Assembly (NCBI GenBank): GCA_028285755.1
Contig: JANQOQ010000007.1
Coordinates: 1 to 43,203, forward strand
Reading direction: 5' to 3'
DNA from: Puniceicoccaceae bacterium
Lineage (GTDB): Bacteria > Verrucomicrobiota > Verrucomicrobiia > Opitutales > JAFGAQ01
DNA: 43,203 nt
The notes beneath the pieces are model-generated. The model worked only from the letters and a program-made list of their open reading frames with translations. It did not search any database and was not told the DNA's origin. Made by a program: the position numbers and the translations under genes. This document shows, one piece after another, positions 15,605-42,713 of the stretch. Position 1 is the first letter of the stretch, and the number at the start of each line of letters is the position of its first letter.

Positions 15605-16219
15605 TTAGACTTCGATAATGCCTCGTTTGATAGCAATCGTTACTGCCTCTGTACGGGCGGATACATGCAGCTTGCTCATGATATTTTTCACATGATCCTT
15701 GATCGTGTAATCGCTGATTCCCAGCTTATCTGCAATTTCCTTATTCGAGAGCCCTTTTGCGATTTTTTTGAGCACTTCAAGCTCGCGAGCAGTAAGGTCT
15801 TCGAATATCTTGCGATGTGCGAGTTGGGAGGACACGTCTTTAGGTATCCAGGCCTTTCCAGTTGCCACCGCACGGACTGCAGGGATCAGGTGCTCACCTG
15901 CAGTGCTCTTAAACACATAGCCCAGTGCCCCCAGTTTCAGGGCGCGATGAATCTCCTCATCACCGCTAAATGCAGAAAATATCAAAATTCGGGCCTCGGG
16001 AAACTCCCGTTTGATAACTTCCACACTATATTCACCCCCATGATTGGGCATGCGTAAATCGAGCAAAACCACATCAGGCCTCACTTTGCGGTAGGCCTCG
16101 ATAGCCTCGAGCCCGTCTTTAGCTTCAGCCACCACACGGATGTCTCCCTCAGAATCTAGCAGGGCGCACAAGCCGCTCCTCACAACAAAATGATCGTCAG
16201 CAATTAAAACGTTTATCAT
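15605..16219 (-). CDS. NarL/FixJ-type response regulator
   Basis: 204 residues. The receiver domain (1-120) has the acidic pair D8-D9, the phosphorylated D54 ('VVLLDLRMP'), S82 and K104 ('GYVFKS'). The output domain (about 138-200) is a LuxR-type helix-turn-helix: 'LTARELEVLKKIAKGLSNKE' then 'IADKLGISDYTIKDHVKNI'. It is the partner of the kinase gene just upstream: the two overlap by 4 nt (ATGA), so they are translationally coupled. The pair sits in front of the GH30/TonB genes on the same strand, which suggests control of that uptake locus, although targets cannot be seen directly. Confidence 0.95.
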   Translation of the reverse strand: MINVLIADDHFVVRSGLCALLDSEGDIRVVAEAKDGLEAIEAYRKVRPDVVLLDLRMPNHGGEYSVEVIKREFPEARILIFSAFSGDEEIHRALKLGALGYVFKSTAGEHLIPAVRAVATGKAWIPKDVSSQLAHRKIFEDLTARELEVLKKIAKGLSNKEIADKLGISDYTIKDHVKNIMSKLHVSARTEAVTIAIKRGIIEV

Positions 16220-18516: not shown

Positions 18517-18572
18517 TCCCGAAGCGCTTACCCTATATTCACGACTTTAGCAGGTCATAAAGCATACAAGTA

Positions 18573-19979: not shown

Positions 19980-20059
19980 AGATCACTAAGTTCATGTTTT
20001 GGAAATTAGGGGTCACAAAGCGACCCCCGATTTCCAAAAACTATCATGTAAATAATTGA

Positions 20060-25395: not shown

Positions 25396-25396
25396 A

Positions 25397-26551: not shown

Positions 26552-27252
26552 GTGACTACTCCCTCTCGGGCTTCAATCAGTTGTCCTTTCTCCAGATGCA
26601 GGGTATGATTCGCGCACGCTGCAGCATGCGAGTCATGCGTTACCATCAGAATCGTTTTTTGATGATCCGTTGATAAGTCCTTTAAGAGTTCAAGAATCTG
26701 GTTTGCCGAATCCTTGTCGAGATCGCCTGTGGGCTCATCCGCCACCAGCAATTGAGGATCGGCGACAATCGCACGCGCGATCGCCACGCGCTGCTCCTGC
26801 CCGCCCGATAATTCAGTGGGTCGGTGATCCGCACGATCACGAATCCCAACCAGATCAAGCGCTGCTTCCACTTTTAAGCGCCGCTCTCTTTTTGTAAGCG
26901 TTGAGTCCAGTATCAAGGGTAGCTCTATGTTTTCATAGGCTGAAAGTATTGGCACCAGGTGATATAGTTGGAATACATAACCGCAATTCTGGGCTCGCCA
27001 GTGTGTTAATTCATTGCGTCTGAGTTTTGAGAGATTCGTTTCCCCCACCCACAACTCACCGCTCGTGGGCGTATCAATACCCGAGATTAAATTCAACAAC
27101 GTGGTTTTTCCAGAGCCGGAGGGTCCCATAAGTGCAAGAAAATCTCCCGCTTCCACTTCCAAATTCAAATCCTCCAGAGGCGTTATCTCGGTTTTACCTT
27201 TAAAATACTTTTTAGTGAGTGCTTTGCAAATAATGTAGGGTCGCGTCTTCAT
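26548..27252 (-). CDS. ABC transporter ATPase, LolD/MacB type
   Basis: 234 residues. Walker A GPSGSGKT (43-50), Q-loop 'VFQLYHLVP', signature LSGGQ (148-152, followed by EQR), Walker B LLVADEP with catalytic Glu (168-174), and the H-loop His in 'MVTHDSHA'. This is the cytoplasmic motor for the two permeases that follow. Overlaps of 4 nt (ATGA) with both the adaptor gene upstream and the permease gene downstream show tight translational coupling and equal dosage. Confidence 0.95.
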   Translation of the reverse strand: MKTRPYIICKALTKKYFKGKTEITPLEDLNLEVEAGDFLALMGPSGSGKTTLLNLISGIDTPTSGELWVGETNLSKLRRNELTHWRAQNCGYVFQLYHLVPILSAYENIELPLILDSTLTKRERRLKVEAALDLVGIRDRADHRPTELSGGQEQRVAIARAIVADPQLLVADEPTGDLDKDSANQILELLKDLSTDHQKTILMVTHDSHAAACANHTLHLEKGQLIEAREGVVT

Positions 27253-28712
27253 GGTTCTACAGCTTTTATGCGTTGATTGTGTCGGAGTTCATTGCCTGGG
27301 TTATTCACTACAATATCACCGGGTCGCAGGCCCTCGATCACGGGGTAATGCCCATCCTCTAATTCAGCTAAAATCTGAATTTTCACTTCCTCAATGTGCT
27401 GGCGATCTCCGCTTAGGCGAAAGAGGGTTGCCTGGTTAGTATTGATAGACAGCAGTGCATTTTCCGGGACAAAGATCATATAGGCATCCGTAGATGCACC
27501 CTGTTTTCCCGAAAGCTCTTTTTGTGCGCTTAAAAATTCGGCACGGCACAGCATTTCCGGTCGCAATCGTGGGTCTGGATTCAAGATTTCGATCTTCGCT
27601 TGCAAGGTATTGCGCTGGATGTCTGACTCACCCAATATGCGCACTACCTGTCCGTGAAACGTGAGTGATGGTAAAAAATTAGATTTCACCCGTGCTGCTT
27701 GGCCAATGCTGAGCTTGCCGGCTTCCTCAAGAGGCACATCCACCCGCGCCTGCAGCGCATCAGGATCAAACAATACGGCAATCGTGGTTGACTCCGGATT
27801 ATCTGCACCCGCCATTCGCTTTTGTCCCGGCTGCGCATACAGGGTCTGGACAATCCCGCTAATCGGAGAAGTTATCCGAGTGCGCTCATATGCCAGTAGA
27901 TTGCGATCTAAATCTACCTCCACTTCTTTTAAAGCGGCTTTGAGCGCCTCCTGCCTGTGTACTTGTTGTTGAACCCGGGCTTCCAGTGTAGCATGTTCTG
28001 AAGCCAGGCGCTTTACTTCAGCCTCTTGCGTTTGCTGCCTCAGCACCGCCTGCATAATGTCCTGCTTCGAAACGACCTCATCGGTGAGTATCAATAAACG
28101 ATCGGCTACGTCCTTAAGCTCTGCTAGCCTGGACTCCGCAGCTTCGATCGCAGCATCCAGCGACACCATTTCCGCACGGGTAATTGCAATCGCTTGCTTT
28201 TGCGATTCCACCTCAGCACGTGCACCTTGTAGTGCAGACTCAGCAGTTTTCACATTCAGTTGAATGTCATCGGCTACCATGGTAGCAAGCAATTGCCCTT
28301 TCTCCACAGCTTCACCTTCCAGCACCAAAACCTGATCTACGAAACCATCAATCAGAGTTGATGCCCGATAAGGATAGGGCGAAGCTTCAATCCAGCCCGT
28401 AGCCTGGAAAATCGGCTCCCCTTCGAAGTTCCCTTGAATCGGTGTCGTTAAATTACCGGTCGTCGCTTCAATGGCAGTCTCCTTTACCACGACCGATACT
28501 AACTCTACTGACTTTGCAGGAATTAGCCTGTCACCAAACAACACTGCAATAAGCACCAAAAACCCAGCTCCTAATAAAATAGGTATTGCTTTCTCAAGAT
28601 ACCTGCGGGAGCCACCTGCTTTCTGAGGTGTCTCGTAGGTATCCGTTGGGGAGTCTTTAGTCTTCTTTTGCTGCTTTTTGCCTTTAGATAAAATATTTAA
28701 ATTCTGATTCAC
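27249..28712 (-). CDS. Membrane-fusion (HlyD-type) periplasmic adaptor
   Basis: The frame is open from a TTG at 28778, but a GTG at 28712 (protein 'VNQNLNILSKGKKQQ', about 487 residues) is a likelier start; no in-frame ATG lies near the N-terminus. A basic stretch precedes one membrane helix ('AIPILLGAGFLVLIAVLFG'). Then come a split lipoyl domain, a long coiled-coil hairpin (roughly residues 165-300 of the long form), and beta-barrel and C-terminal domains ending 'GDIVVNNPGNELRHNQRIKA'. It would join the ABC permeases to an outer-membrane channel. The operon has no channel of its own; the TolC-like gene further upstream in the window could serve. Confidence 0.88.
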   Translation of the reverse strand: MNQNLNILSKGKKQQKKTKDSPTDTYETPQKAGGSRRYLEKAIPILLGAGFLVLIAVLFGDRLIPAKSVELVSVVVKETAIEATTGNLTTPIQGNFEGEPIFQATGWIEASPYPYRASTLIDGFVDQVLVLEGEAVEKGQLLATMVADDIQLNVKTAESALQGARAEVESQKQAIAITRAEMVSLDAAIEAAESRLAELKDVADRLLILTDEVVSKQDIMQAVLRQQTQEAEVKRLASEHATLEARVQQQVHRQEALKAALKEVEVDLDRNLLAYERTRITSPISGIVQTLYAQPGQKRMAGADNPESTTIAVLFDPDALQARVDVPLEEAGKLSIGQAARVKSNFLPSLTFHGQVVRILGESDIQRNTLQAKIEILNPDPRLRPEMLCRAEFLSAQKELSGKQGASTDAYMIFVPENALLSINTNQATLFRLSGDRQHIEEVKIQILAELEDGHYPVIEGLRPGDIVVNNPGNELRHNQRIKAVEP

Positions 28713-28822
28713 ACATATAATCCATTGCTGAGCAGGTACAAATGCCTGCCAAATCGTTTTATAACCAATTCCAATCAACTCCGCTGTTCTTAAGGGAGTT
28801 GTGCTTAATCAGTGGATGTGAA

Positions 28823-29699: not shown

Positions 29700-31142
29700 C
29701 TATAAATCCGCTATCCCAAAATGATAACCGGCTCGGCCAAGGAGAAGGTCATAACGAGCGAGGTTTTTATTATAGTCGGTCAGCGCAATTAGTTCTCGGA
29801 TTTCTGCGTTTGCTAAATCGCTTTGCAAACGCAACACTACAAAAGTGGTGCTTGTGCCTACTTGTAGTTGCCGCTCTTGCGCAGCAAGAGTCGTTTCTGC
29901 CAGTTCACGTGCACGTCCGCTAATTTCCACCCGTTTCCAATCGTTCTGAACCCGCCGTGCAAAGGTATCCAGATCAAACAATATCGATTGTTCGAGACTT
30001 TCGAGGGAGATTTCGCCGAGATTGACGTTGAGTTCGGAAATAATCCTTCGGGCACGATCCGCTCGGTTAGGAATCGCTTGATTAAAGGCAAAGCCCAACT
30101 CATAGCTCATTCGGTGATCACTTGAAATCTCTTGTAAGCTTGAACCGAAGCTATTTCCATCTCCGCCCAAACCGTAACCAGCAATGATATCCAAAGCCGG
30201 TAGCGCCTGATTGCGTGATTGCTTCAGCAATAGCCCTGCGATGTGCAGTTCACGCAACGCCTGTTGATAATCAGGTCGTTGAGCAAGTGCGGCACTATAA
30301 TCCTCTATCGGATTAGTAGTGATGGATCCTATATTCGGCAAGGAGACGACATTAATACTTTGGTTAAGCATAGATTGTGCATCATCACCTATGAGCTGTT
30401 TTAGTTGATTTCCGCGAAAGTTCAGAGTGTTTTGTGCGACTAAGACGCGCTCTTCACGCAAAGCCAGTTGCGACTCGTTCTGTCCAATATCCAAAGGCGC
30501 CATTCCTCCGGCTTGCACACGTTTACGGTTATCCTCAAGTAACTTTCTTGCCAAGTCACGGTTACGTTGCACGACCTCCAGATTGTGTGCGGCAAAATAG
30601 TAGTCATGGTAGGCGATAATCACATCAGTGATCACATTCATGACGACCTGTCGAAACTCCCACTCATTGAGCTCATGCCGCGTCTCGGCTATACGCAGTT
30701 CAGTGAGATTGCTGGAATAGCCAAAACCATCCAAAAGAGGTTGCCGAATCGAAATCCCTACGAAACTCGTAAAGGGGAGTTCTTGGCTGACTGCTTGATC
30801 TCTGCTTTCTGTGACCTGCAAGCCCAGGTCATAGGTGGTGCCTAATGGAGTGCGACCGGATATGCCTGCCCGGTAGCTATTCGCTTCCGCATTTGCTACT
30901 GATTCATTATCACGATGCGTATAACTCACATCTACGCGTGGATCAAATGCCCCTTTCGCCTGTTCTATGCTTTCTTCGGCAATCAGTGGGTTGATCTTTG
31001 CTATGCGGACACTAAAATTCTTTTTAAGTGCAAGCTCAATTGCCTTTGATTGATCCAACTCCAGTATATCAGCGATGACACATTGCCATACACCCGAAGC
31101 TAAGAGCAAACTTAGCAAGCACTTTGCATAATGCCTACTCAT
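29700..31142 (-). CDS. TolC-type outer-membrane efflux channel
   Basis: 480 residues from the ATG at 31142, preferred over a TTG two codons earlier. Signal peptide about 1-25. Two OEP repeats give the alternating coiled-coil and strand pattern: 'IRIAKINPLIAEESIEQAKG' in the first half and 'LRLQSDLANAEIRELIALT' near the end. 'NAEIRELIALTDYNKNLARY' is the usual C-terminal helix of TolC proteins. It forms the outer-membrane exit duct for the adaptor, ATPase and ADOP permeases encoded upstream, 22 nt after the ATPase gene. It may also serve the separate exporter operon beyond repeat R3. Confidence 0.93.
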   Translation of the reverse strand: MSRHYAKCLLSLLLASGVWQCVIADILELDQSKAIELALKKNFSVRIAKINPLIAEESIEQAKGAFDPRVDVSYTHRDNESVANAEANSYRAGISGRTPLGTTYDLGLQVTESRDQAVSQELPFTSFVGISIRQPLLDGFGYSSNLTELRIAETRHELNEWEFRQVVMNVITDVIIAYHDYYFAAHNLEVVQRNRDLARKLLEDNRKRVQAGGMAPLDIGQNESQLALREERVLVAQNTLNFRGNQLKQLIGDDAQSMLNQSINVVSLPNIGSITTNPIEDYSAALAQRPDYQQALRELHIAGLLLKQSRNQALPALDIIAGYGLGGDGNSFGSSLQEISSDHRMSYELGFAFNQAIPNRADRARRIISELNVNLGEISLESLEQSILFDLDTFARRVQNDWKRVEISGRARELAETTLAAQERQLQVGTSTTFVVLRLQSDLANAEIRELIALTDYNKNLARYDLLLGRAGYHFGIADL

Positions 31143-31170
31143 CACCAACCATTATTACGTACCCGGTTAT

Positions 31171-31866
31171 TTACACCTCTACCGGTAGTTCGTTCACAAC
31201 CGATCCATCAAACAAATGAACCGTTCGCGTGGAAAATGTCGCATAACGCTCATCGTGAGTCACCATGCATATAGTTGCGCCTTCTTCATTTAACTCTTTT
31301 AGCAGATCCATAACTGCCTCCCCATTTTTTGAGTCGAGATTCCCTGTGGGCTCGTCAGCCAACAAAATACGTGGACTTCCTGCCAGTGCACGCGCTACGG
31401 CTACCCTTTGCTGCTGCCCTCCGGAAAGTTGGCTGGGCACATGTTTCATACGGTGTGCCATGTTTACTTTTTCGAGGGCTTCGGTTGCCAGTTTTTTACG
31501 GTAACTGGCTTTCATACCACGGTAAGTCAGTGGTAGCTCCACGTTCTCGTAGACTGTTAAATCACCAATTAAGTTAAAACTCTGGAAAATAAAACCCACA
31601 TCTCGGTTACGAATTTTTGCCCGCTGATTTATGGTTAGGTTTTCAACTTGCTGTCCGTTCAGGCGATATTCTCCTTCTGTTGGAGTATCCAGTAAACCCA
31701 GGATCGACAGGAGCGTAGACTTACCGCAGCCGGAAGGCCCATTGATTGCGAGAAACTCGCCATCTTCAATATCCATATCAATACCCGCCAATGCGCGTGT
31801 TTCAATTTCATCAGTCAGGAAAACTTTCTTGATGCTCTTTAATTCGATTACTTTCTGTGTATTCAT
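31171..31866 (-). CDS. ABC transporter ATPase, MacB/LolD type
   Basis: 231 residues. Walker A GPSGCGKS (43-50), Q-loop 'FIFQSFNLIG', signature LSGGQ (147-151), Walker B ILLADEP (167-173), H-loop 'MVTHDERYA'. It is the only ATPase in the 29.7-42.6 kb block, where three permeases lack one, so it probably powers all three. Gaps of 17 nt to the adaptor gene and about 28 nt to the channel gene show a single operon. Confidence 0.95.
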   Translation of the reverse strand: MNTQKVIELKSIKKVFLTDEIETRALAGIDMDIEDGEFLAINGPSGCGKSTLLSILGLLDTPTEGEYRLNGQQVENLTINQRAKIRNRDVGFIFQSFNLIGDLTVYENVELPLTYRGMKASYRKKLATEALEKVNMAHRMKHVPSQLSGGQQQRVAVARALAGSPRILLADEPTGNLDSKNGEAVMDLLKELNEEGATICMVTHDERYATFSTRTVHLFDGSVVNELPVEV

Positions 31867-31883: not shown

Positions 31884-33137
31884 TTACTTAATTTTGATTC
31901 TTGGGTGCTCCGCCCATTCGGAAGTGTCTGACAAAATCACCCGGTCGCCAGGAGTCAGCCCATTGCTTACTTCAATATCACTGACAGAGCTCAGGCCAAA
32001 GTTTACAGGTGTGCGCACGGCAAAAGTTCCCTCTGATTCAAAGCGATAAATCTCCATACTCCCGTATTCACGGGCAAATGCCGGCCGCCCCACGTAAATC
32101 ACATCCGCAAGGCGCTCGAGCTCGATATTGCCCTCGATAGTCAGATCAGGCCGGGCACCCCGAGGCAGCTCAGAGATCAATCGCACATCCACGGCTACGG
32201 TGCCATTCTCCACGGTAGGATCTACACGCATGACCACTCCTTCAATAATACCATTTCGGGTGTCGATCCTGGCAGTTTGCCCAGGCATTACGTCCTTTGC
32301 CTGCGTCTCGGCGATCTCCACAACCGCTTTTAAACGGCTGGGGTCGGCCACCTCGGCAAGTATTTCGCCGGGTGCTACCTGTTGGCCAATCTCTACCGGC
32401 AATCTTTGGAGCACACCCTCTATCCCTGCCCGCACCTGCTGCGCTTCGAGCTGGCTTGTGAGCAAGTTGTATCGGGCTTGTAATTGCTCAATCTGTGCCT
32501 GCTGCGTATCCAGCCGCGATTGCTGTGATTTCCCCTGAAACTCGATGCGCCTGAGATCAAGAGCTACTCGCTTACCAAGTTGTTCTGCATTCAGTTCAGA
32601 GCGTTTAAATGCCAACTCAGCAACCAGACCCTCTGTAAAAAGCTCCTCGTTCAACTCAGCCTCAAGCAATGCCTGCTGATAGTTGGCCTCAAGTTGAGCA
32701 TGGTTTGCTTCCATCTCAAGCATGCGACCCTCTAACTCGACTTCAATACTTACTAATTCAGTCTCCGAAGCCCTTAATTCTAAGCGCGCGTTTTCCACCT
32801 CCTGCTCAAGCTGTGGATTATTCATCACCAGGATCACTGTATCGATCTCGACTCGAGTGCCTGGGAAGATTAGCAACCTCTCGACACGGCCTGTCGTTTG
32901 TGCAGAAATTAGGCGGTTCTCCTCGGGAGCCAGCACTCCAATACCGCGAACCTCCCTCAACAAAGGGCCCCGCTTCACAGTATCTACCCACACGGAGCCT
33001 TGATCCAACGAGGGAACCGCGGGCTCAAGCTGACTTAAGCCCACCCATGCAGTTGCTAATAACCCCGAACCTATGACCGCATAGAAAATCCTACGCTTCC
33101 TTTTCGCTTTTTTTAAATCTGGCCGTTCAATATCCAT
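31884..33137 (-). CDS. Periplasmic adaptor (MacA/HlyD type)
   Basis: 417 residues. Short basic N-terminus, one membrane helix (about 17-36), a lipoyl half ('AQTTGRVERLLIFPGTRVE'), a long coiled-coil hairpin (about 105-235, rich in E/Q/L), the second lipoyl half ('GVLQRLPVEIGQQVAPGEIL'), then beta-barrel and C-terminal domains ending 'GLTPGDRVILSD'. This matches MacA-type adaptors that connect MacB permeases to TolC. It lies 21 nt after the third ADOP gene and 17 nt before the ATPase gene. Confidence 0.92.
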   Translation of the reverse strand: MDIERPDLKKAKRKRRIFYAVIGSGLLATAWVGLSQLEPAVPSLDQGSVWVDTVKRGPLLREVRGIGVLAPEENRLISAQTTGRVERLLIFPGTRVEIDTVILVMNNPQLEQEVENARLELRASETELVSIEVELEGRMLEMEANHAQLEANYQQALLEAELNEELFTEGLVAELAFKRSELNAEQLGKRVALDLRRIEFQGKSQQSRLDTQQAQIEQLQARYNLLTSQLEAQQVRAGIEGVLQRLPVEIGQQVAPGEILAEVADPSRLKAVVEIAETQAKDVMPGQTARIDTRNGIIEGVVMRVDPTVENGTVAVDVRLISELPRGARPDLTIEGNIELERLADVIYVGRPAFAREYGSMEIYRFESEGTFAVRTPVNFGLSSVSDIEVSNGLTPGDRVILSDTSEWAEHPRIKIK

Positions 33138-33158: not shown

Positions 33159-35903
33159 TCACTCCGCGCGAAGGGCTACGACCGGGTTGATGCGGGTTGC
33201 TCTCCGGGCAGAGAAGCAAGCTGCAGTAATTACTATCGTAGCTAAAAGCGACACCACAGTCGCGTAAGTGAGTATGTCTATGTGAGATACTTGATAAAGA
33301 AACGGGGCGAGATGTCCTGATAGCGACAGCATTAATATAAAACCAGCGAGTATTCCTGCAAATGCATAGTGCACCCAAAGCGACATGCAGCCCCATAGAA
33401 CCAGTCCGGTACGAGCGCCGAGCGCCATACGTATGCCAATCTCCTTGGTTTGCGAGCCTACTGAGTTTGCAATACTCCCCACCAAGCCTAAAACACAGAT
33501 CAATAGTGAAAGCATCCCCACAACCACGCCAAAACCAAGCAGATTTTGCTGATCTTGGTAGTTTCTTTGAATAATTTCATCCATGGTCTCAGGAAAGCCG
33601 ATACCGATATGAGGATTCTCACGATCCACAATCGTCTGCAGATCACCCAAGAAAGTGGACAGTTCGATAGGGGTTTTTGCTTTTACAAACAAATTTATCC
33701 ACCACGGGGGATGCATATAGCGGCTCTGAAAGACCTGGCCTAAGACATCACCTTCATTCAAAAGATTATTGGTCTTGATAGATGGGACTACACCGACAAT
33801 CGTTAGCCAATTAAGATTTTGATTGGTACTTGCTTCATAGGCAAAGGTGACCGCTATGCGCTTACCAATGGGGTCTTCTCCCGGAAAATGCAAGTTGGCA
33901 AACTTTTCATCAATAATGGCAACAGCACTGCGATTCTTTTGCTCAGCTGCACTAAAATTCCTACCTCTCAAGAAAGGTATTCCAAAGACATCAAAGTATC
34001 CACGGTTAACGGAATCCCTGTAACATTCTGGGATATTCCCCTTGTTCAGGTTCTGCATGTCACGCTCGATAAGCAGGTCGAAGGATTGTCCTGCTCCCTG
34101 CAGCTTAAGGGGACCCCAGGAAGCTTCGCCAACCGCTTCAACATAGGGTAATTCGCTTAATTCACGAATAATCTTCTCCATGAGCGCTGATCTTTCATTA
34201 CCGTCGTACAGAAGATTCGGCGGGCGCACCGCAGCGGTCATTATCTGTTCACTGTCAAAACCGGGATCAATCTCAAGTATCTTTAAAAAGCTACGAAAGA
34301 GTAAACCGCTTGCTATCAGCAAAATGACCGTAGCGGTCAGTTGGGCAAATAATAAGGCTCCCTTGTGTACCTTGGATTTTTTACTTCCCGAGCCTACACG
34401 CGTATCTTCATGACTGATTTCAGCTCGACCCGCATTTCTAAAAACGGGCAGGAGACCGATGACGCTTACGATCACTACCACGGCTAAAGCAAGGGCTATG
34501 GCAAAAAGCACTGCGTTTTCATTGATACCCGGTTGAGGCATGATCACAAAATATGCAAGCATTTTGGCATCCGACATCCATTGCAGCCCAGCACTCGCCA
34601 GGCACAGTGCGAGTATCGCTCCCAGTATTATCAGAATAACCATTTCCATAAGCAGGAAGCGAAATAACTGCCCGCGACTCGCCCCCAACGAAAGGCGAAT
34701 ACCGATTTCACCCAACCGATCCATATTGCGGTTTAAAGCCAAAGCAGAAATGTTTACACATCCGATCACCAAAAACAGTGCTAGGGCAATTACCAGAATC
34801 GCTAGAGCAGATTTGGCATTTCTTACCAGATCTTCTCTCAAGGGTTTAACATAAGTATGGTGACCGCTGTTCTGCTCATACTCATATTGCACGGGATGTT
34901 GAGGTCCATTGCGTTGATTAATCGCGTTTAGCTCAAGTTCGAGTTGTTGAACAGTTGCTCCCGACTTAAGTCGTGCGAAACATCCTCCATAAGGAATGTT
35001 ACGGTCTCTGGGATTATCCGCAGAATAGTACACCGGGCGAATAAAGGGTACATAAAGAGCTTTGGTAAACAAATCTTGCCGACCGTCACTTGTTGTTCTG
35101 GGAATCACGAAATTCTTCGGCATCACGCCAACAATTTTGTAGGGAATCGTGCTAATCCATACGGTTTGATCTATGATGTCTTTATCTTTATTGCAGCGAG
35201 TGGCCCAGTAGTGGTAGGTCAGAACAGCCAGTTTTTTATCACCACTATCCAAATCCTCTTGAGTGAATACGCGCCCCAAGAGCGGTTGAACTCCAAATAC
35301 TTCAAATAGAGAAGGTGTAACGTGACTAATGGAGAGGAATTCCGGGTTTGAATGCTCATTGTCGATATGGATATTGACATCATCGCCCTGATAAAAACCG
35401 ATATTTTCGACGAGTTCGGACTGCTCCTCCCGCTCTCTATAAAAATGAAAGCTCGTACCCCAACTAGAGTCATAGGTATTTGTGAGATTATAGCGATCAG
35501 CAATGCGAACAATCCGATTTTCATCCTTATACAAACCCGGATTAAGGTAGAGTGAATCGACGATTTTAAAGCCGATGATATTCAGCCCCACGCAAACCGC
35601 TAATGTTATGATAATCACCAGTGAATAACGCGGGCGTTTATAGAGCTGTCGCAAAGTAAGCGATAGCTCTCGGCAACACGTTAATACTGAGCGCACCCCC
35701 CAACTCTCGCGGGTGCTCTCTTTGATCTGCTCGATACCGCCAAATTCGCGCATCACCTCCTTGCGTGCCTGCTCATTGGTCATGCCCATATCCATTTTCT
35801 GCTGGATACTCATCTCAATATGGAAAGTAATTTCCCTATCCAGTTGATCCTCCGAATAATCATTACCAAAGAGTTTTTTAAGACTGTAGAGGAGTTTATT
35901 CAT
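33159..35903 (-). CDS. ADOP-type duplicated MacB-like permease 3 (no ATPase domain)
   Basis: 914 residues. The N-terminal 'permease prefix' helix region (about 1-65; 'QARKEVMREFGGIEQIKEST') is followed by two tandem FtsX units: helix 1 about 88-108, periplasmic domain to about 360, three helices, a second single helix about 500, second periplasmic domain, and three C-terminal helices ending 'RRATRINPVVALRAE', the usual ADOP end. ADOP proteins are fused pairs of MacB-like permeases common in Acidobacteria and Verrucomicrobia. It has no Walker motifs and must borrow the ATPase encoded two genes downstream. Its PadR gene lies 7 nt upstream. The N-terminal cytoplasmic segment differs from the near-identical one shared by permeases 1 and 2. 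Confidence 0.92.
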   Translation of the reverse strand: MNKLLYSLKKLFGNDYSEDQLDREITFHIEMSIQQKMDMGMTNEQARKEVMREFGGIEQIKESTRESWGVRSVLTCCRELSLTLRQLYKRPRYSLVIIITLAVCVGLNIIGFKIVDSLYLNPGLYKDENRIVRIADRYNLTNTYDSSWGTSFHFYREREEQSELVENIGFYQGDDVNIHIDNEHSNPEFLSISHVTPSLFEVFGVQPLLGRVFTQEDLDSGDKKLAVLTYHYWATRCNKDKDIIDQTVWISTIPYKIVGVMPKNFVIPRTTSDGRQDLFTKALYVPFIRPVYYSADNPRDRNIPYGGCFARLKSGATVQQLELELNAINQRNGPQHPVQYEYEQNSGHHTYVKPLREDLVRNAKSALAILVIALALFLVIGCVNISALALNRNMDRLGEIGIRLSLGASRGQLFRFLLMEMVILIILGAILALCLASAGLQWMSDAKMLAYFVIMPQPGINENAVLFAIALALAVVVIVSVIGLLPVFRNAGRAEISHEDTRVGSGSKKSKVHKGALLFAQLTATVILLIASGLLFRSFLKILEIDPGFDSEQIMTAAVRPPNLLYDGNERSALMEKIIRELSELPYVEAVGEASWGPLKLQGAGQSFDLLIERDMQNLNKGNIPECYRDSVNRGYFDVFGIPFLRGRNFSAAEQKNRSAVAIIDEKFANLHFPGEDPIGKRIAVTFAYEASTNQNLNWLTIVGVVPSIKTNNLLNEGDVLGQVFQSRYMHPPWWINLFVKAKTPIELSTFLGDLQTIVDRENPHIGIGFPETMDEIIQRNYQDQQNLLGFGVVVGMLSLLICVLGLVGSIANSVGSQTKEIGIRMALGARTGLVLWGCMSLWVHYAFAGILAGFILMLSLSGHLAPFLYQVSHIDILTYATVVSLLATIVITAACFSARRATRINPVVALRAE

Positions 35904-35910
35904 ACTTAAA

Positions 35911-36252
35911 CTATGATTGCATACCCATATCCAGTACGAGGCTAACGGCTGTCACAAACTGCTCCCAATAGGAAATCTCCTGTTCGAGTTGCTTCTTGCC
36001 GGTAGGCGTGATCTTATAGTATTTAGCCTTGCGATTATTCTCGGAGAGCCCCCACTCAGCAGCTATCCAACCCTGACGTTCCATCCGATGCAGACATGGA
36101 TAAAGCGAACCCTCCTTCACATTCAGCGCTTCACGTGAAGCGATCCCTATACTCTGCGAAATTCCCCAGCCGTGCATCTTACCGCGTTGGAGTGTTTTCA
36201 ATATCAATAAATCCAGCGTGCCCTGCAGTAAATCCGTCTTATCTCTTTTCAT
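35911..36252 (-). CDS. PadR-family repressor 3
   Basis: 113 residues: winged helix 'LLQGTLDLLILKTLQRGKMH', 'GWGISQSIG', the wing 'EGSLYPCLHRMERQGWIAAE' and a short C-terminal dimer helix (subfamily with a minimal C-terminus). PadR proteins repress efflux genes and release DNA when they bind a toxic or phenolic ligand. It is transcribed with ADOP permease 3 (7-nt gap) and continues into the adaptor, ATPase and channel genes. An inverted repeat in its promoter is the probable autoregulatory site. Confidence 0.95.
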   Translation of the reverse strand: MKRDKTDLLQGTLDLLILKTLQRGKMHGWGISQSIGIASREALNVKEGSLYPCLHRMERQGWIAAEWGLSENNRKAKYYKITPTGKKQLEQEISYWEQFVTAVSLVLDMGMQS

Positions 36253-36274
36253 AAAATCATCCTTCCTATAGTTT

Positions 36275-36314
36275 TTCTATGGGAGAAAAAACAACCCTTC
36301 CCATAGAATGTCAA
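36275..36314 (-). promoter_or_regulatory. Promoter/operator of the PadR3-ADOP3-adaptor-ATPase-TolC operon
   Basis: Perfect inverted repeat TTCTATGGGA (36275-36284) and TCCCATAGAA (36299-36308), 14-nt spacer. On the minus strand TTGACA (36314-36309) directly abuts the distal arm, and the arms cover the space down to the -10 area. Binding would block RNA polymerase. Sequence differs from the other two PadR sites but the geometry is the same. Confidence 0.85.
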
Positions 36315-36367
36315 TAGGTAAAATTACGTTTTTCCTTTCATGCACATATATTGGTATTATCTCAAAA

Positions 36368-39109
36368 TCACTCTGCTCGCAGGGCTACGACTGGATTGAT
36401 GCGGGTCGCACGCCTGGCTGAGAGGTAAGCGGCGATCAATACTATACTCATAAAGAAGGTGCTGCTCACTCCATAAGCTACTGCATCATAAGGGTTTACC
36501 CGGTAAAGCAGTTGCTCAAACCCGGGCAGAACCACAGCTGCTACCACTAATCCACATACGATACCCCCAGACGCAATCATCATCCAGTAGCGGATGATTT
36601 CCATTTGCACGGTCGATACCCTCGCCCCCAACGCTATACGTATACCGATTTCCTTATAACTCGATGCAATCAAATAGCTAATTACCCCATACAGCCCTAT
36701 CGCACATAGCCCCAATGCGAGCGCTGCCAGTGTAACCACTAGCGTCAGCAGATGCTTCTGGTTGCTATAATTCTTATCGAGAATATCACGCATGCTTTCC
36801 ACCTTAATCATGGCAAGCCTTGGGTCCATATCGTCCAATATTTCACGAATGGGTTGCCGGACCGAATAAGGGTTTCCTCTGGTTTTTACCACGAGACTCG
36901 CCCAGACAGGAATATATTCATTAATATGGCGATAAACAGTCCCCATTGCAGCCGGTTCTACAAGATTACTGCGTGTAACATTGCCCACCACACCGATGAT
37001 GGTATACCAAGTTCCCGGCATGCTACTGTCCGGTGGTAAATGTGATGAATGAAGAGCTATTCGCTGTCCCAGAGGATCAATACCGGGGAAATGGCTTTGC
37101 GCCAGCTGTTGATCGATGATAACCACCCGGCGCTGGTTTTGTAAATCTGACTGGTCAAAATTACGCCCGCGAATAACCGGTATGCTGAGAGTTTCAAACA
37201 ATGAAGTATCCACTGAATCCGAAATGCACGAAGCTCTATCACGCAGGCCCGTATTCCAATCCCGCTCAGATATCATAGTAGTGACATTATTACCTCCCCA
37301 CTTCAAAGGTGGAAAGAAATTGAGCCCAACACTCTCTACATCTGAAAGCTCTGCCACCCGACGCTTAAGCTCTGCCATAAACACTCTTTTTTCATCGCTA
37401 TCGTATTCTTCGTTCATTAAGCGAAAAGAGGCGGTAAAGATCCTTTCTGTATTAAAGCCGGGGTCCGTCTTTAGCACTTCCCAAAAACTTTTTAGTAGTA
37501 AACCACCGGCTATCAAAACAAAACAGCACAGCGCAATTTGTGCCCAGGTTAAGGCAGTCTGATATTTCTTAAATCCACTGCCACTACTACTTGTTCGCGC
37601 ATCTTCACGAATTGCCAGAGAAAAACCGCCTTGCTGGAAAATCGGAATCAACGACAGAAGCCCGGACAGTACTCCTGCAGATATAGAAATTAGTGTGATA
37701 ATGGCGAAAAAATCCGTATCCATCTGCAAGCGAGGTCTTACTAAAAAGATATCCAAAATACCTGTATGCGATAGAAGTCTAAATATTATGGCAGCAACAA
37801 TAAGGCCACCGATACCCCCGAGCATACCATAAATGCAGTTTTCAACGAGGATCTGCCGGATCAATCTCAGTCTGCTCGCACCTAGGGCCACTCTTGTGCT
37901 AAACTCCTTCAAACGCTTCCGGTTTCGACTCAAAATGAGACTGGAAACATTGATACTGCCCATTAAAAAAATGATACCAAGAGCGGCTTGGAGCAGCATC
38001 AATTCAGTTTTCACATTGCGCACCAAATCTGCGCGCAGGTTGTTTACTATAATTTTATGGCCATTGCGTTGCTCAAATTCGTAAACCTCCGGATAATTAG
38101 GCCCATTACTGGCCCCAATTGCCGATAATTCCGCATGCAGCTTATCGATAGTCACATTCTCCCTAAGCAGTCCTAAACTGGTTACATAATTAAATTGTCG
38201 TCCGCGCCCAGTTCGATGCCAGGGGCGCTCGACCCAAGGTGATAGGAGAGGAGTTTGGTTATTAAATTGCGCGCTCTGTGCGTCATTCCCGCTGGGTATA
38301 CTAAAGCGCTTCGGCATTACTCCAATAATCGTGTATAGAGTACGATCCAGCTCAATTTGTCGCCCGATGATGTTTTTATCTCCCTGAAAGCGAGATTGCC
38401 AATAATTGTAATTAAGTATCACAATGCGGGTATTTCCTTCATCAACATCTTGTTGCGTAAATACACGACCCAGATAAGGCTTTACACCCAGCACACTAAA
38501 CAAGGAGGGCGATACACTATGATTGAAAACACGCTCCGGATTTGGGCGATCCCCTATATCTGTAATCGTCATGCCCCAGATTCTACAGATAGCTAAATCC
38601 TCCAGAAGTTCACTTTGCTCCTTACGTTCCAGATAATAGAGGGGACTCGTTAGCCAGTAACCTTCGCGGGCATATCGATTCTGAAACGAGTCAGAGATCC
38701 GCACGATTCTGTCCTCGTTCGGATATAGATTCGGGTTTAAGAACAGTGAATCAAAGATACCGATCATCACTGCATTTAGGCCGATGCAAATAACAAAGGT
38801 AATGATAACGATTGCAGAAAAACCCTTGTGCTTTAATATCTGCCGCCAACCGTAGCGGATGTCCTGCAGGAATTCACTGATTAGGCGCGTGCCCCATGAA
38901 TCCCGGCAGTCTTCCTTTAGACTCTCCACATTGCCAAATTCACGTAAGGCTGTCTTGCGCGCTTGTTCGGAGGACATTCCATTTCGCTCATACTGCTCGG
39001 CCTTCATTGCCAGATGTACCTCCATCTCCTCATCCAGTTCAGTATTCTTCACATCCAAATTCATGAGGGACCGCCCCCAATTCTTAACGCGGCTGATAAC
39101 ACTCATCAT
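36368..39109 (-). CDS. ADOP-type duplicated MacB-like permease 2 (no ATPase domain)
   Basis: 913 residues with the prefix region ('LDEEMEVHLAMKAEQYERNG'), two FtsX units and the same 'RRATRINPVVALRAE' C-terminus as permease 3. A strong ribosome site (GGAGGT) precedes the start, which may be either of two consecutive ATGs. The segment 'EDCRDSWGTRLISEFLQDIR' then 'YGWRQILKHKGFS' is nearly identical to permease 1 even in silent positions. The periplasmic domains are quite different between the three permeases, suggesting different ligands. It is paired with its own PadR gene (20 nt upstream), and a gap of 115 nt with a new promoter separates it from the next pair. Confidence 0.92.
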   Translation of the reverse strand: MMSVISRVKNWGRSLMNLDVKNTELDEEMEVHLAMKAEQYERNGMSSEQARKTALREFGNVESLKEDCRDSWGTRLISEFLQDIRYGWRQILKHKGFSAIVIITFVICIGLNAVMIGIFDSLFLNPNLYPNEDRIVRISDSFQNRYAREGYWLTSPLYYLERKEQSELLEDLAICRIWGMTITDIGDRPNPERVFNHSVSPSLFSVLGVKPYLGRVFTQQDVDEGNTRIVILNYNYWQSRFQGDKNIIGRQIELDRTLYTIIGVMPKRFSIPSGNDAQSAQFNNQTPLLSPWVERPWHRTGRGRQFNYVTSLGLLRENVTIDKLHAELSAIGASNGPNYPEVYEFEQRNGHKIIVNNLRADLVRNVKTELMLLQAALGIIFLMGSINVSSLILSRNRKRLKEFSTRVALGASRLRLIRQILVENCIYGMLGGIGGLIVAAIIFRLLSHTGILDIFLVRPRLQMDTDFFAIITLISISAGVLSGLLSLIPIFQQGGFSLAIREDARTSSSGSGFKKYQTALTWAQIALCCFVLIAGGLLLKSFWEVLKTDPGFNTERIFTASFRLMNEEYDSDEKRVFMAELKRRVAELSDVESVGLNFFPPLKWGGNNVTTMISERDWNTGLRDRASCISDSVDTSLFETLSIPVIRGRNFDQSDLQNQRRVVIIDQQLAQSHFPGIDPLGQRIALHSSHLPPDSSMPGTWYTIIGVVGNVTRSNLVEPAAMGTVYRHINEYIPVWASLVVKTRGNPYSVRQPIREILDDMDPRLAMIKVESMRDILDKNYSNQKHLLTLVVTLAALALGLCAIGLYGVISYLIASSYKEIGIRIALGARVSTVQMEIIRYWMMIASGGIVCGLVVAAVVLPGFEQLLYRVNPYDAVAYGVSSTFFMSIVLIAAYLSARRATRINPVVALRAE
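38840..38917 (-). repeat. 78-bp exact duplicate inside ADOP gene 2
   Basis: Identical to 42004-42081 in ADOP gene 1 (offset 3164 nt), and the next ~20 nt differ at only two places. It encodes the cytoplasmic segment just before the first membrane helix. The rest of the two genes is far more diverged. Confidence 0.85.
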
Positions 39110-39129
39110 ACACCTCCATAGCTAAGCGC

Positions 39130-39462
39130 TTAACTCTGCAACCCCGCCATCACATCTCCAATCGCTGTAGTCAGCGCCTCCCACGAAGCATGCTCCTCAC
39201 CCAGGCGTTGTTTGCCCACCTCCGTCAGCTCATAATACTTTGCCCGCCGGTTATTCTCCGTTTTGCCCCATTCAGAAACAATCCATCCACGCTCCTGCAT
39301 GCGATGCAGTGCAGGATACATGGACCCCTCCTCTACACTAAGAACCTCTTTTGACAGCAAATGTATCTGCTGTGAAATCCCAAACCCATGATTAGGCTGA
39401 CCTGCCAATACCCGTAAGATCAACATCTCAAGCGCTCCTTGTGGAAAATCTAATTTTTTCAT
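39130..39462 (-). CDS. PadR-family repressor 2
   Basis: 110 residues: 'FPQGALEMLILRVLAGQPNH' then 'GFGISQQIHLLSKEV', wing 'EGSMYPALHRMQERGWIVSE', 'NNRRAKYYELTEVGKQRL'. Same short PadR type as the other two but clearly a different sequence, including the recognition-helix region, which fits the different operator. It is cotranscribed with ADOP permease 2. Probably autoregulated through the inverted repeat before it. Confidence 0.95.
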   Translation of the reverse strand: MKKLDFPQGALEMLILRVLAGQPNHGFGISQQIHLLSKEVLSVEEGSMYPALHRMQERGWIVSEWGKTENNRRAKYYELTEVGKQRLGEEHASWEALTTAIGDVMAGLQS

Positions 39463-39477
39463 AACATTACCATATTT

Positions 39478-39516
39478 GAACTAGGGTAAAGAAGTAAAAC
39501 TACCCTAGTTCGTCAA
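39478..39516 (-). promoter_or_regulatory. Promoter/operator of the PadR2-ADOP2 unit
   Basis: Perfect inverted repeat GAACTAGGGTA (39478-39488) and TACCCTAGTTC (39501-39511), 12-nt spacer. On the minus strand TTGACG (39516-39511) serves as the -35 box and overlaps the distal arm by one base. Same geometry as the other two PadR promoters, with unrelated arm sequence. Confidence 0.85.
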
Positions 39517-39555
39517 GGGTAAAGTTGTGAAAAATTTATTAGCTTCGTGTTTTCT

Positions 39556-42273
39556 CTATTCTGCCCGCAGGGCTACCATCGGGTTTACCCGAATGATCCG
39601 ATAAGCCGAAACATAACACGCCAGGGAACTTACAACAGCCAGGAAGATGATTGCCGTAGCGTACGTAATCAAATCCCTGGGGCTTGTATTATACAAATGA
39701 CTTTCCATGTATGGAGCTATGCCGAGCGAGAGGGCTGAGCCGCACAGTATCCCAACCAAAACCATCATAAACCAAAATCGTATTCCCAGTATCAATACAT
39801 GTAGTCGACTCCCGCCCAGAGCCATGCGAATACCCAGTTCTCTGGTTTGCAGCACCACCGTATACGCCACATTGCCAAATATACCAACAGCACTTAACAA
39901 GAGGGACACAAAGGTAATGATGAGGCACATGATGAGCAACGCTTTGGAGGGAGCGCGGTGCTTGTCTACCAGATCATGCATCATTGCCGGCATAGCGAGA
40001 CCGGTTTTCTGCGTTACAGATGCCAACATCGACTCTAACTCACTATAAATGTTGTTTTCTCTTATGGTCGTCCTTACCATTACGCCATTCCAATAGGGCA
40101 ATTGACGGTGAATGTGTGTAAACGCTGTTCCCAGCACGGGGGACTCAAGCAAGTTTACATTGCGTATCGTTTCGGTAACACCAATAATGGTAAGCCAGTT
40201 CCTTTCTCCCTCTTCGGTAGCTATGCCTCCTCCTTCTGCTGGTATTGAAATCCTCTTCCCAACAGGATCCTCGCCCCGAAAATGCAAATCCGCCAAATTC
40301 TTGTCGATCACTACCACAGGGGATCGGTTTTGAATCTCCGATTCGCTAAAAGTTCTTCCCCTCAGAAAGCGGATCCCGAGCGTGGCAAAGTAGCCAGCAC
40401 TTACCGTATCGTTATGGCACATCACTTCATCTCCGTGCTCACTTCCTTCAATGCGTAAGCTACGCAGGTACAAATTCCCCAATTTCAAAGGTGGCCAATT
40501 GCTAATCGCCACATCTTGCACCCCGGCTATTTGCTTAGCCTGCTCTAGAAATTTCTCTGTTGCTTCCCTTCGTTCATCAGCAGTACCTACCGGGCGAAAG
40601 CCTGCAGTAAATACATTACTGCTGTCAAAACCTGTATCGATATCGAGAATCTTGGTAAAACTATTGATCAACAAGCCGCTGCCAATTAGAAGTACCGCCG
40701 CCAGGCACAATTGAGTTGCGATCAATGCTCCTTGAAAAATCTTAAAAGATTTCCCTGCAGAGGCGGTGCGATGATCTTCCCGCAGACCATCCGCCAGGGA
40801 TGAGTCCTGGGCTTTCCCCAGTATAGGTAATAACGAAATGAAACCCACCAGAGTTCCTAAAAACAGTGCAAGGCATGATGCAAATAACCAAGTCTCTCTA
40901 TCCAAACTCACCCGCGGACGTATTACCATATCGTCAAAAATTCCTCCAAACTCAAGGCTTCTCAGAACCAACCAACTCAAACAAAGCGCAATTGCCGCAC
41001 TGATAATGCTAACCAGCACACTCTCTGTGAGCAACTGTCTGACAAGGCGGAAGCGGCCAGCTCCTAAGGCATAACGGTACCGAAACTCACCCATGCGTCT
41101 ATGGTTGTGGCTAATGATCAAGCTCGAAATGTTTACACAACCCAGCAATAGCAAGAAGACTACAGCCATCTGTAGCAACTGAAGTTCCGTTTGGAGAAAG
41201 CGGATAATATGGTCACCCAGCGAACACAGCTCTGTGCGATGGTTCTGCTCCTGTGCGATCTTAAACTGCTCCGGGTAATTGAGGCCATTGCTCACATTAA
41301 TTCTTCGAAGTTCATCTTCTACCTGCTCGATGTTTACTCCGGTTTTCATTAGTCCCATACAAAAGCCCATGGGCCGATTCCTAAATTCCGGGCGCCAAGA
41401 CCATTCCCACCTAGGGAAAGGGGTGTATACCTGATCGGGCATATTTGAAACGCGGGCTAGTGGAAAAGCAAACCCCTCAGGCATCACACCTATCACTTCA
41501 TGCAACTGATTGTTGATGTAGAGGCTACTTCCAATAACATTTTCATCACCTTGATAGCGATTTTGCCAATACTCATAGCCGAGCAACACTGGCCGGTTAC
41601 CCTCATTTTCTACATCTTCAGCTGAAAAAGTACGACCCAGTAAAGGAGCAACCTTCAGGATCTCAAACATAGAAGGGGTCATCCTCCCAACTCCCAAAAA
41701 CTCCGCATTTTTCTCGGAATTTCCATGAGTGATGTTTTCCCAGGTTCCTCCGAACAAACCGATTGCTTCCAGTGTTTCTGACTGTTCAGAGCGTTCTTTC
41801 CATAAAATCCGGCTACTCTGGAATCTGTCTTCTCCCCACAAATCATCAAATTCTTCCCAGATACTAATGATCCGATCTTCATTCGCGAATCGATTAGGGT
41901 TCCACACCATTGAATTATAAACATTAAAGATGGCCGTGTTGAGACCCAGGCAGATGGCAAAAGTGAGGATGACGATTAAAGAAAAACCTTTGTGCTTTAA
42001 TACCTGCCGCCAACCGTAGCGGATGTCCTGCAGGAATTCACTGATTAGGCGCGTGCCCCATGAATCCCGGCAGTCTTCCTTGTGTTGTTCAATGCCACCA
42101 AAGGCTTTAAGCGCTTCTTTGCGGGCCTTTTCTGGGGGCATACCCTTAGCAATGTGTTCCTCCGTTTGTTGGTCGATGTGAAATTGCATCTCTTCGGCAA
42201 GCGCATCTTCCGATTTATTCCTTCGGAGGAGGGCATTGAACATCACCCGTAGCTGACTAAATATACCGCTCAT
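39556..42273 (-). CDS. ADOP-type duplicated MacB-like permease 1 (no ATPase domain)
   Basis: 905 residues. Prefix region 'LAEEMQFHIDQQTEEHIAKG' and 'EKARKEALKAFGGIEQ', first membrane helix about 97-118, two periplasmic domains and the paired three-helix bundles of the ADOP layout, ending 'YRIIRVNPMVALRAE'. No ATP-binding motifs. The gene begins 3 nt after the PadR1 stop, so both are translated as one unit. There are 93 nt before the next PadR gene's start, filled by that gene's own promoter. The substrate is unknown; MacB relatives export macrolides, peptides or lipoproteins. Confidence 0.92.
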   Translation of the reverse strand: MSGIFSQLRVMFNALLRRNKSEDALAEEMQFHIDQQTEEHIAKGMPPEKARKEALKAFGGIEQHKEDCRDSWGTRLISEFLQDIRYGWRQVLKHKGFSLIVILTFAICLGLNTAIFNVYNSMVWNPNRFANEDRIISIWEEFDDLWGEDRFQSSRILWKERSEQSETLEAIGLFGGTWENITHGNSEKNAEFLGVGRMTPSMFEILKVAPLLGRTFSAEDVENEGNRPVLLGYEYWQNRYQGDENVIGSSLYINNQLHEVIGVMPEGFAFPLARVSNMPDQVYTPFPRWEWSWRPEFRNRPMGFCMGLMKTGVNIEQVEDELRRINVSNGLNYPEQFKIAQEQNHRTELCSLGDHIIRFLQTELQLLQMAVVFLLLLGCVNISSLIISHNHRRMGEFRYRYALGAGRFRLVRQLLTESVLVSIISAAIALCLSWLVLRSLEFGGIFDDMVIRPRVSLDRETWLFASCLALFLGTLVGFISLLPILGKAQDSSLADGLREDHRTASAGKSFKIFQGALIATQLCLAAVLLIGSGLLINSFTKILDIDTGFDSSNVFTAGFRPVGTADERREATEKFLEQAKQIAGVQDVAISNWPPLKLGNLYLRSLRIEGSEHGDEVMCHNDTVSAGYFATLGIRFLRGRTFSESEIQNRSPVVVIDKNLADLHFRGEDPVGKRISIPAEGGGIATEEGERNWLTIIGVTETIRNVNLLESPVLGTAFTHIHRQLPYWNGVMVRTTIRENNIYSELESMLASVTQKTGLAMPAMMHDLVDKHRAPSKALLIMCLIITFVSLLLSAVGIFGNVAYTVVLQTRELGIRMALGGSRLHVLILGIRFWFMMVLVGILCGSALSLGIAPYMESHLYNTSPRDLITYATAIIFLAVVSSLACYVSAYRIIRVNPMVALRAE
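42004..42081 (-). repeat. 78-bp exact duplicate inside ADOP gene 1
   Basis: Partner of 38840-38917. The encoded segment (..DCRDSWGTRLISEFLQDIR..) is absent in this form from ADOP gene 3, which reads 'ESTRESWGVRSVLTCCREL' there. Confidence 0.85.
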
Positions 42274-42276
42274 GGC

Positions 42277-42609
42277 CTAAATGGTTTCAAGTATGCTGTT
42301 AATGGCTGCTGAGAACTGCCGCCATATCTCTGTCTCCGTCTCCATCTGTCTTTTTCCTGATGGGGTTAGCTGGTAGTATTTCGCGCGCCGCCCATTATCG
42401 GAAGTACCCCAGTCTGAGCGTATGTAACCTTTTTTCTCCAGGCGTATAAGCGCCGGGTAAAGAGAACCCTGGTTAACGCTCAAAGTGTCTTGCGAAAACT
42501 GGTTAATACGCTGCTGGATGCCCCAACCGTGCCGCGCCTCATCCCTAAGGGCCCGGAGCACGAGCAGATCCAAAGTTCCCTGAAGGAGATCATTTGCTGT
42601 TTTAGCCAT
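42277..42609 (-). CDS. PadR-family repressor 1
   Basis: 110 residues: 'LLQGTLDLLVLRALRDEARH', 'GWGIQQRINQFS', wing 'QGSLYPALIRLEKKGYIRSD', 'NGRRAKYYQLTPSGKRQM'. Short PadR type with one C-terminal dimerisation helix. It is the first gene of the three-pair block and is followed 3 nt later by ADOP permease 1. Likely ligand-responsive autorepressor of its pair. Confidence 0.95.
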   Translation of the reverse strand: MAKTANDLLQGTLDLLVLRALRDEARHGWGIQQRINQFSQDTLSVNQGSLYPALIRLEKKGYIRSDWGTSDNGRRAKYYQLTPSGKRQMETETEIWRQFSAAINSILETI

Positions 42610-42624
42610 AATTATTTCTAGTTA

Positions 42625-42664
42625 ATCTAGAAGAGACAGATAAAACCTTCTTCTAGATTGTCAA
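42625..42664 (-). promoter_or_regulatory. Promoter/operator of the PadR1-ADOP1 unit
   Basis: Perfect inverted repeat ATCTAGAAGA (42625-42634) and TCTTCTAGAT (42649-42658), 14-nt spacer. On the minus strand TTGACA (42664-42659) is the -35 box immediately next to the distal arm; TATCTG 16 nt further on could be the -10. The repeat covers the spacer and -10, as expected for a repressor site. Confidence 0.85.
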
Positions 42665-42713
42665 GAGGTAATTCTAACCAAGATTACGTGATCTTAGTGT
42701 AACGCGACACTTA

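Follow-up and report, generated by a model that had tools for sequence, protein, structure and literature searches.

Probable double-palindrome operators and a putative two-module recognition code of PadR repressors in an exporter gene cluster of a Puniceicoccaceae bacterium

PadR proteins form a large family of repressors that is little mapped, and ADOP exporters, for which we know of no substrates, are greatly expanded in soil bacteria. In the window considered here (the whole analysed stretch of 43,203 nucleotides, positions 1 to 43,203 of contig JANQOQ010000007.1 from a Puniceicoccaceae bacterium), each of three PadR genes is followed by a gene for an ADOP-type permease, and three perfect inverted repeats are present upstream of the PadR genes on the minus strand, as the first-pass annotation had described. 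What unit does each repressor recognize, and do the three repressors distinguish between their operators? We observed that each of the three promoters (P1, P2 and P3) contains four half-sites, which make up two palindromes of the same geometry, site A (h1 and h2), which has its centre at the -35 hexamer, and site B (h3 and h4), located 33-35 bp downstream, beside the start codon. This architecture and its position over the -35 box and the leader are read directly from the sequence. We put at about 80% the probability that these are two-palindrome operators with the half-site CNANNNRA, at which two PadR dimers would exert autorepression with a specificity set by a few residues of the repressor. 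The elements are as follows.

42649..42669, minus strand: P1 site A, a palindrome centred on the -35 box; h1 at 42662-42669, h2 at 42649-42656 (CTAGAAGA)
42659..42664, minus strand: P1 -35 hexamer TTGACA, assigned by sequence and family profile
42614..42634, minus strand: P1 site B, TCTTCTAG-N5-CTAGAAAT; h3 at 42627-42634, h4 at 42614-42621; the centre is 35 bp from that of site A, and the end is close ahead of the start codon
42277..42609, minus strand: PadR1 (TIGR03433), helix residues N46, Q47 and I55, wing residue N72
39501..39521, minus strand: P2 site A; h1 at 39514-39521, h2 at 39501-39508 (CTAGGGTA), with perfect TACCCT/AGGGTA arms
39511..39516, minus strand: P2 -35 hexamer TTGACG, assigned by sequence and family profile
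39468..39488, minus strand: P2 site B; h3 at 39481-39488, h4 at 39468-39475 (6/8 matches), centre 33 bp from that of site A
39130..39462, minus strand: PadR2 (TIGR03433), with E, E, H and N at the equivalents of 46, 47, 55 and 72
36299..36319, minus strand: P3 site A; h1 at 36312-36319, h2 at 36299-36306 (CTATGGGA)
36309..36314, minus strand: P3 -35 hexamer TTGACA, assigned by sequence and family profile
36264..36284, minus strand: P3 site B; h3 at 36277-36284, h4 at 36264-36271 (CTATAGGA, 7/8 matches), centre 35 bp from that of site A; h4 overlaps a purine-rich Shine-Dalgarno-like GGAAGGA
35911..36252, minus strand: PadR3 (TIGR03433), with K, E, H and N at the equivalents of 46, 47, 55 and 72

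The repeats noticed initially are the inner pairs h2-h3, that is, one half-site from each palindrome; the flanking half-sites h1 and h4 had been overlooked. These repeats are TTCTATGGGA in P3 (36275-36284 / 36299-36308, 10-bp arms, 14-nt spacer), GAACTAGGGTA in P2 (39478-39488 / 39501-39511, 11-bp arms, 12-nt spacer) and ATCTAGAAGA in P1 (42625-42634 / 42649-42658, described with 10-bp arms). The arm lengths of P2 and P3 were given correctly, while in P1 the arms extend to 11 bp (AATCTAGAAGA, 42624-42634 / 42649-42659), and the -35 box indeed shares one base with the distal arm in P1 and P2, while in P3 it abuts the arm. Out of 1000 dinucleotide shuffles per upstream piece, perfect arms of such length were present in 2 for P1, 1 for P2 and 5 for P3, and in the 4.25-Mb genome each repeat is found only once, even with up to three mismatches allowed. 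These are promoters of PadR genes with a shared geometry and differing operators, as proposed, but the unit that is bound is presumably not the inner repeat. The unusually large spacing ascribed to these PadR sites results from pairing h2 with h3 across two palindromes of canonical spacing: what was measured is how far two ordinary PadR sites are separated.

In order to place the three promoters among their relatives, we considered 331 PadR upstream regions, which come from Verrucomicrobiota, Acidobacteria and Gemmatimonadota, with a small number from other groups; a scan across the phylum contributed few further loci. Position 0 was set at the first T of the -35 hexamer, so that h1 occupies positions -5 to 2 and h2, positions 8 to 15, with h3 and h4 following. 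When the longest perfect repeat was sought in the relatives, the spacings were inconsistent and the architecture was obscured; alignment on the -35 hexamer resolved it. When self-complementarity was averaged over regions aligned on this hexamer only, the strongest dyad was at the last base of TTGACA and not between the arms of the repeat. The combined architecture score reached 17 in 147 of the 331 regions vs approximately 1.3 in shuffles, and 18 in 135 regions vs none; the promoters of the window score 21.5-22.5, and their four-half-site pattern was matched by none of 4000 shuffles each.

If sites A and B are the units bound by dimers, the spacing within each of them should be rigid. For promoters picked solely for having a -35 hexamer plus the framework C.A....A, symmetry being left unused, the spacing between h2 and h1 within site A was 6 in 70 of 83 cases, and that between h4 and h3 within site B was 6 in 25 of 28, while the distance between h2 and h3 varied, mainly from 22 to 30. 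Hence sites A and B are presumably the binding units, as rigid units are what dimers bind. The positions equivalent to ACAT are separated by 9 nt in both sites, constantly across the relatives, which fits the 8-10 nt of the PadR consensus ATGT-(N)8-10-ACAT (PMC3506622, PMC5428041). The letters themselves are different: the half-sites of the window do not match ATGT/ACAT, and some relatives are CTACAT-like. The arms had been described as sharing little beyond a CTAG/CTAT core, which is partly true, but in register all of them, including CTAGAAGA, CTAGGGTA and CTATGGGA, are variants of the single framework CNANNNRA, where C8, A10 and A15 are nearly invariant family-wide (these letters were required for selection in the geometry test, and not in the combined score). 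The TTG of the -35 box, read on the opposite strand as CAA, provides the C and the A of h1 and forces its middle letter to be A. Therefore h1 is imperfect unless the PadR prefers CAA, and it is the inner pair, h2-h3, that forms a perfect, eye-catching repeat.

No good -10 box was found at 15-19 nt in any of the three promoters of the window, and a scan with the sigma-70 consensus detects none of them, owing to the weak -10 boxes. In the family, TANNNT at 15-19 nt occurs in 42 of the 147 promoters vs 15 in shuffles (maximum 26), with enrichment at 17-18 nt. An RNA hairpin or attenuator was considered and rejected, as the upstream arm is situated between the -35 and -10 boxes and the transcript would hold one arm only.

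Two variants were seen among the relatives. In locus L074 (G278:C26), the PadRs at 2685 and 10308 have promoters without an inverted site B, in which the site A block instead forms a long direct repeat (two copies of TGACGATCTAGGTAA). Three metagenome-assembled genomes labelled Betaproteobacteria or Acidobacteria/Acidoferrales (loci L186, L206 and L208) have a near-identical element CCTAAACGTCTTATGG upstream of a PadR gene; these PadRs have the helix VEEGALYPALHRLELR, and the usual TTGACA is absent. This may be a different operator type or the result of recent transfer.

The second part of the question is how the operators are distinguished. A check of the operators against the recognition helices had been suggested initially, and we observed that the operator differences do track the helix residues. 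In the covariation set of 147 promoters, half-site positions 9, 11 and 12 (the core) follow the helix residues 46, 47 and 55, and positions 13-15 (the flank) follow the wing tip, residues 71-73. Model columns 42, 43, 51 and 68 correspond to N46, Q47, I55 and N72 of PadR1. An unbiased scan of all protein columns against DNA positions placed columns 42, 43 and 51 at the top for the core, and column 68 for the flank; in the single-column ranking, columns 42, 51 and 43, in this order, took the top three places among 76 for positions 9, 11 and 12, and the wing columns 68, 67 and 69 were first for positions 13-15. Columns 42, 43, 51 and 68 were among the top ten both in Verrucomicrobiota and in Acidobacteria/Gemmatimonadota, mixed with some columns of helix 2.

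The correspondence can be given letter by letter. G in column 42 is accompanied by G9 (24/25), and E, by T9 (47/51). For columns 43 and 51, Q-H is found with CA (37/41), Q-Y with GG (23/27), E-H or E-Y with GG or TG (22/23), Q-I with GA (6/6), and H-Q with CC (7/7). Among proteins with 50-60% identity elsewhere in their sequence, those sharing columns 42, 43 and 51 had on average 0.53 core mismatches of three, vs 1.84, and none of 1498 random column triples equalled this triple at matched identity. In the hold-out across phyla (Verrucomicrobiota against Acidobacteria/Gemmatimonadota and vice versa) all four tests outperformed all 5000 permutations, with hit rates from 31/53 to 29/37. When whole genomes were left out, the four recognition residues found the cognate operator for 37 of 83 proteins from 14 genomes (14.5 expected), while random sets of four columns gave 22.7 on average and 29 at most. 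Whole-protein similarity finds the cognate operator in 52 of the 83 cases, and hence ancestry is informative too.

The covariation is a direct observation, and so is the location of the covarying residues on the predicted structure (mean pLDDT 90.8). The model comprises helices 10-20, 28-38 and 47-59, strands 63-69 and 75-81, and helix 83-109, the recognition helix being 47-59 and the wing turn, 70-74. Residues 47, 51 and 55 are on one face of the recognition helix, and residue 46 is at its N-terminus. Residue Y51, the signature tyrosine of the PadR-2 recognition helix, is invariant in the alignments. The nearest solved folds are PadR-2 ones (PadR of Brachyspira, LmrR and BC4206), and the layout is that of PadR-2, approximately 100 residues with a winged helix and one long C-terminal dimerization helix. 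The three proteins score 140.6, 140.5 and 145.9 bits with TIGR03433 (padR_acidobact, cut-off 101.8) and 72-76 bits with Pfam PF03551, and they are the only TIGR03433 PadRs above the cut-off in the host genome. Thus, the proteins are ordinary PadR-2/TIGR03433 repressors with an ordinary control logic, and a few of their residues appear to track the operator letters in a two-module code, the helix reading the core and the wing reading the flank.

Applied to the window, the code would distinguish the three switches to different degrees. PadR1 (N, Q, I) faces the operator CTAGAAGA, and its N, Q, I relatives mostly have CTAGAAG or CTAGAGG; PadR3 (K, E, H) faces CTATGGGA, and its K, E, H relatives have CTATGGGA or CTAGGGGA; PadR2 (E, E, H) faces CTAGGGTA, and its relatives have CTAGGGGA. 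Both PadR2 and PadR3 have E at the position of Q47 and H at that of I55, and relatives of the PadR3 class use both CTAT and CTAG. In the model trained without the host genome, PadR1 and PadR3 each gave the top rank to their own operator, and the modelled preference of PadR1 for its own site was approximately 2.9 log units or more. Since the operators differ as the helix residues predict, PadR1 is expected to be insulated from both other systems and not to act on their operators, whereas PadR2 and PadR3 are probably separated only in part. The initial claim that the repressors should not cross-talk is hence well supported for PadR1 vs the other two and weaker for PadR2 vs PadR3, and the three switches look largely independent, though not provably so.

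The divergence of operators had been described as following duplication. The operators have diverged, but the PadRs of the window are more similar to orthologues elsewhere (0.63-0.77 identity) than to their neighbours (0.45-0.51), and these orthologues share their helix residues with them and have an identical or similar half-site; the divergence thus is ancient and older than the host genome. At matched protein identity, no excess of within-genome operator divergence was observed in most bins, and two bins differed, in opposite directions. As paralogues within genomes show no general excess of divergence, selection against cross-talk lacks support.

The following mechanism would account for these observations. 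By analogy with other PadR proteins, each PadR would autorepress its own PadR-ADOP exporter operon, padR included. Two PadR dimers would bind sites A and B, which have the same rigid geometry; site B would cover the expected transcription start and the leader, so that with both sites occupied RNA polymerase would be blocked, and, as for LmrR, the repressor would come off the DNA on binding an inducer. The specificity would come from half-site positions 9, 11 and 12, set by residues 46, 47 and 55, with the wing tip (71-73) influencing positions 13-15; the degree of insulation is likewise an estimate.

Several alternatives should be weighed against this mechanism. If each promoter had one operator, namely the perfect repeat h2-h3 surrounding the -10 region with 23-25 bp from arm to arm, a single or stretched PadR dimer would have to span it. 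No perfect repeat in any of the three promoters is longer than h2-h3, and of the half-sites in the window these two match best; on the other hand, in the relatives the distance between them ranges over 22-30 bp with h1-h2 and h3-h4 fixed, and in known PadR operators 8-10 nt separate the half-sites, which makes a single operator quite improbable. All three repressors could also read CNANNNRA within one broad specificity, the operator differences being tolerated drift. The near invariance of C8, A10 and A15, the small difference between the P2 and P3 operators, the lack of preference of PadR2 for its own operator in the model, and the lack of a general within-genome excess of divergence would be expected from such cross-talk, although drift would not make positions 9, 11 and 12 track helix residues across phyla at matched divergence, nor is it consistent with the preference of PadR1 for its own site in the model. 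We consider this possibility unlikely. The covariation could also mostly reflect shared ancestry, each clade of paralogues having inherited a helix signature together with an operator, the two not being causally matched. The performance of whole-protein similarity and the small number of strictly independent pairs agree with this, while the distance-matched comparison, the random column triples, the cross-phylum hold-out and the structural placement of the top columns (the helix for the core, the wing for the flank) argue otherwise, and we give it little credence.

A number of observations do count against the double-palindrome operator with specificity set by helix and wing residues. The strict architecture threshold was passed by only 147 of the 331 relatives, and PadR2 ranks its own operator last in the model trained without the host genome. 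The four recognition columns were chosen on data overlapping those of the leave-genome-out matching. In the strict tree test with independent pairs at supported branches the direction was mostly consistent, with too few pairs for significance; Fisher tests on path-disjoint pairs proved to be confounded by the pair distance, as unrelated columns also scored, and were replaced by the distance-matched tests. Finally, given the poor -10 boxes, the transcription starts of the promoters in the window are expected positions only.

The genes downstream of the repressors are as follows.

39556..42273, minus strand: ADOP-type duplicated permease 1, TIGR03434-like (609 bits, cut-off 622)
36368..39109, minus strand: ADOP permease 2, TIGR03434 (653 bits, above the cut-off)
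33159..35903, minus strand: ADOP-type permease 3, TIGR03434-like (584 bits, cut-off 622)
31884..33137, minus strand: periplasmic adaptor (RND_mfp/HlyD), 21 nt after ADOP3
31171..31866, minus strand: ABC ATPase, next after the adaptor
29700..31148, minus strand: outer membrane efflux protein (OEP), next after the ABC ATPase

All three ADOPs comprise two MacB_PCD and two FtsX stretches each; with the exact TIGR03434 cut-off of 622.3 bits, ADOP1 and ADOP3 are just under it. The full set of a tripartite ABC exporter (MacAB-TolC-like) is present only in the P3 operon, with ADOP3, the adaptor, the ABC ATPase and the OEP in this order. Thus, the P3 operon is predicted to encode a complete tripartite exporter, and P1 and P2, to control PadR-ADOP pairs. 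The 5' parts of the ADOP2 and ADOP1 genes contain a 223-nt direct repeat (38695-38917 / 41859-42081), 78% identical overall and including a nearly identical stretch of approximately 60-90 nt, while the two genes have strongly diverged elsewhere, which suggests a patch of past gene conversion. A second exporter set (an HlyD-type adaptor, an ABC ATPase and two single-length MacB/FtsX permeases) adjoins the cluster at 24247-28778, with no PadR gene identified beside it. Next to the exporters, at 16216-23014, there are a TonB-dependent receptor plug protein, a GH30 glycoside hydrolase and a histidine kinase.

Among the closest known systems is LmrR of Lactococcus lactis, likewise a small protein of PadR-2 fold, an autorepressor that controls the adjacent LmrCD ABC exporter from an inverted-repeat operator with 8-10 nt between the half-sites (PMC5428041, PMC4534193). 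More than one dimer per operator has been reported for LmrR (PMC5428041, PMC4534193), which is a precedent for two dimers per promoter. Unlike here, the LmrR sites are ATGT/ACAT variants, whereas the CNANNNRA half-site has variable specificity positions, and the operators of the window consist of two palindromes, on the -35 box and 33-35 bp downstream. With bcPadR1 and bcPadR2 of Bacillus cereus and LftR of Listeria (PMC3506622, PMC6457526) the proteins share the fold, the invariant helix tyrosine (Y51 here) and the wing needed for binding, both the tyrosine and the wing being essential for DNA binding by LftR (PMC6457526); the difference is that TIGR03433 operators vary with the helix residues. 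The TIGR03433 padR_acidobact / TIGR03434 ADOP pairs of NCBIfam are similar in that the PadRs score above the cut-off and each precedes an ADOP-type permease, although the host here belongs to Opitutales (Verrucomicrobiota) rather than Acidobacteria, and two of the ADOPs fall just short of the TIGR03434 cut-off. Such PadRs number 56, 38, 35 and 33 in four genomes of Acidobacteria and Gemmatimonadota (G684, G681, G685 and G686, respectively), with up to 56 in one genome of Acidobacteria. Contigs of other genomes of the same order (G278:C10, G278:C26 and G313:C38) also have several PadR genes arrayed within tens of kilobases, like the window.

Codes in which operator letters covary with helix residues have been described for LacI (PMC2978694), GntR (PMC4494728), IclR (PMC8222616) and MerR (PMC5045206) proteins, that is, for other families; no comparable PadR study was found in the literature searched. 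Searches for PadR codes or ADOP regulation gave nothing on point, most subscription journals being outside their scope, and no description of the composite operator with a PadR recognition code was found in the literature searched, with many subscription journals likewise outside that search. We lean towards the view that the PadR-ADOP pairs are a natural set with a readable two-module code on a rigid double-palindrome scaffold, where the -35 box supplies one half-site, and that this would be the first such code for the PadR family. The promoter illustrates how recognition by the sigma factor limits one half of an operator, hence its asymmetric look. If the code holds, the specificity change among paralogous repressors would be testable by small residue swaps in three proteins of one cluster, and the operators and regulons of very many PadR-ADOP genes would be predictable from sequence.

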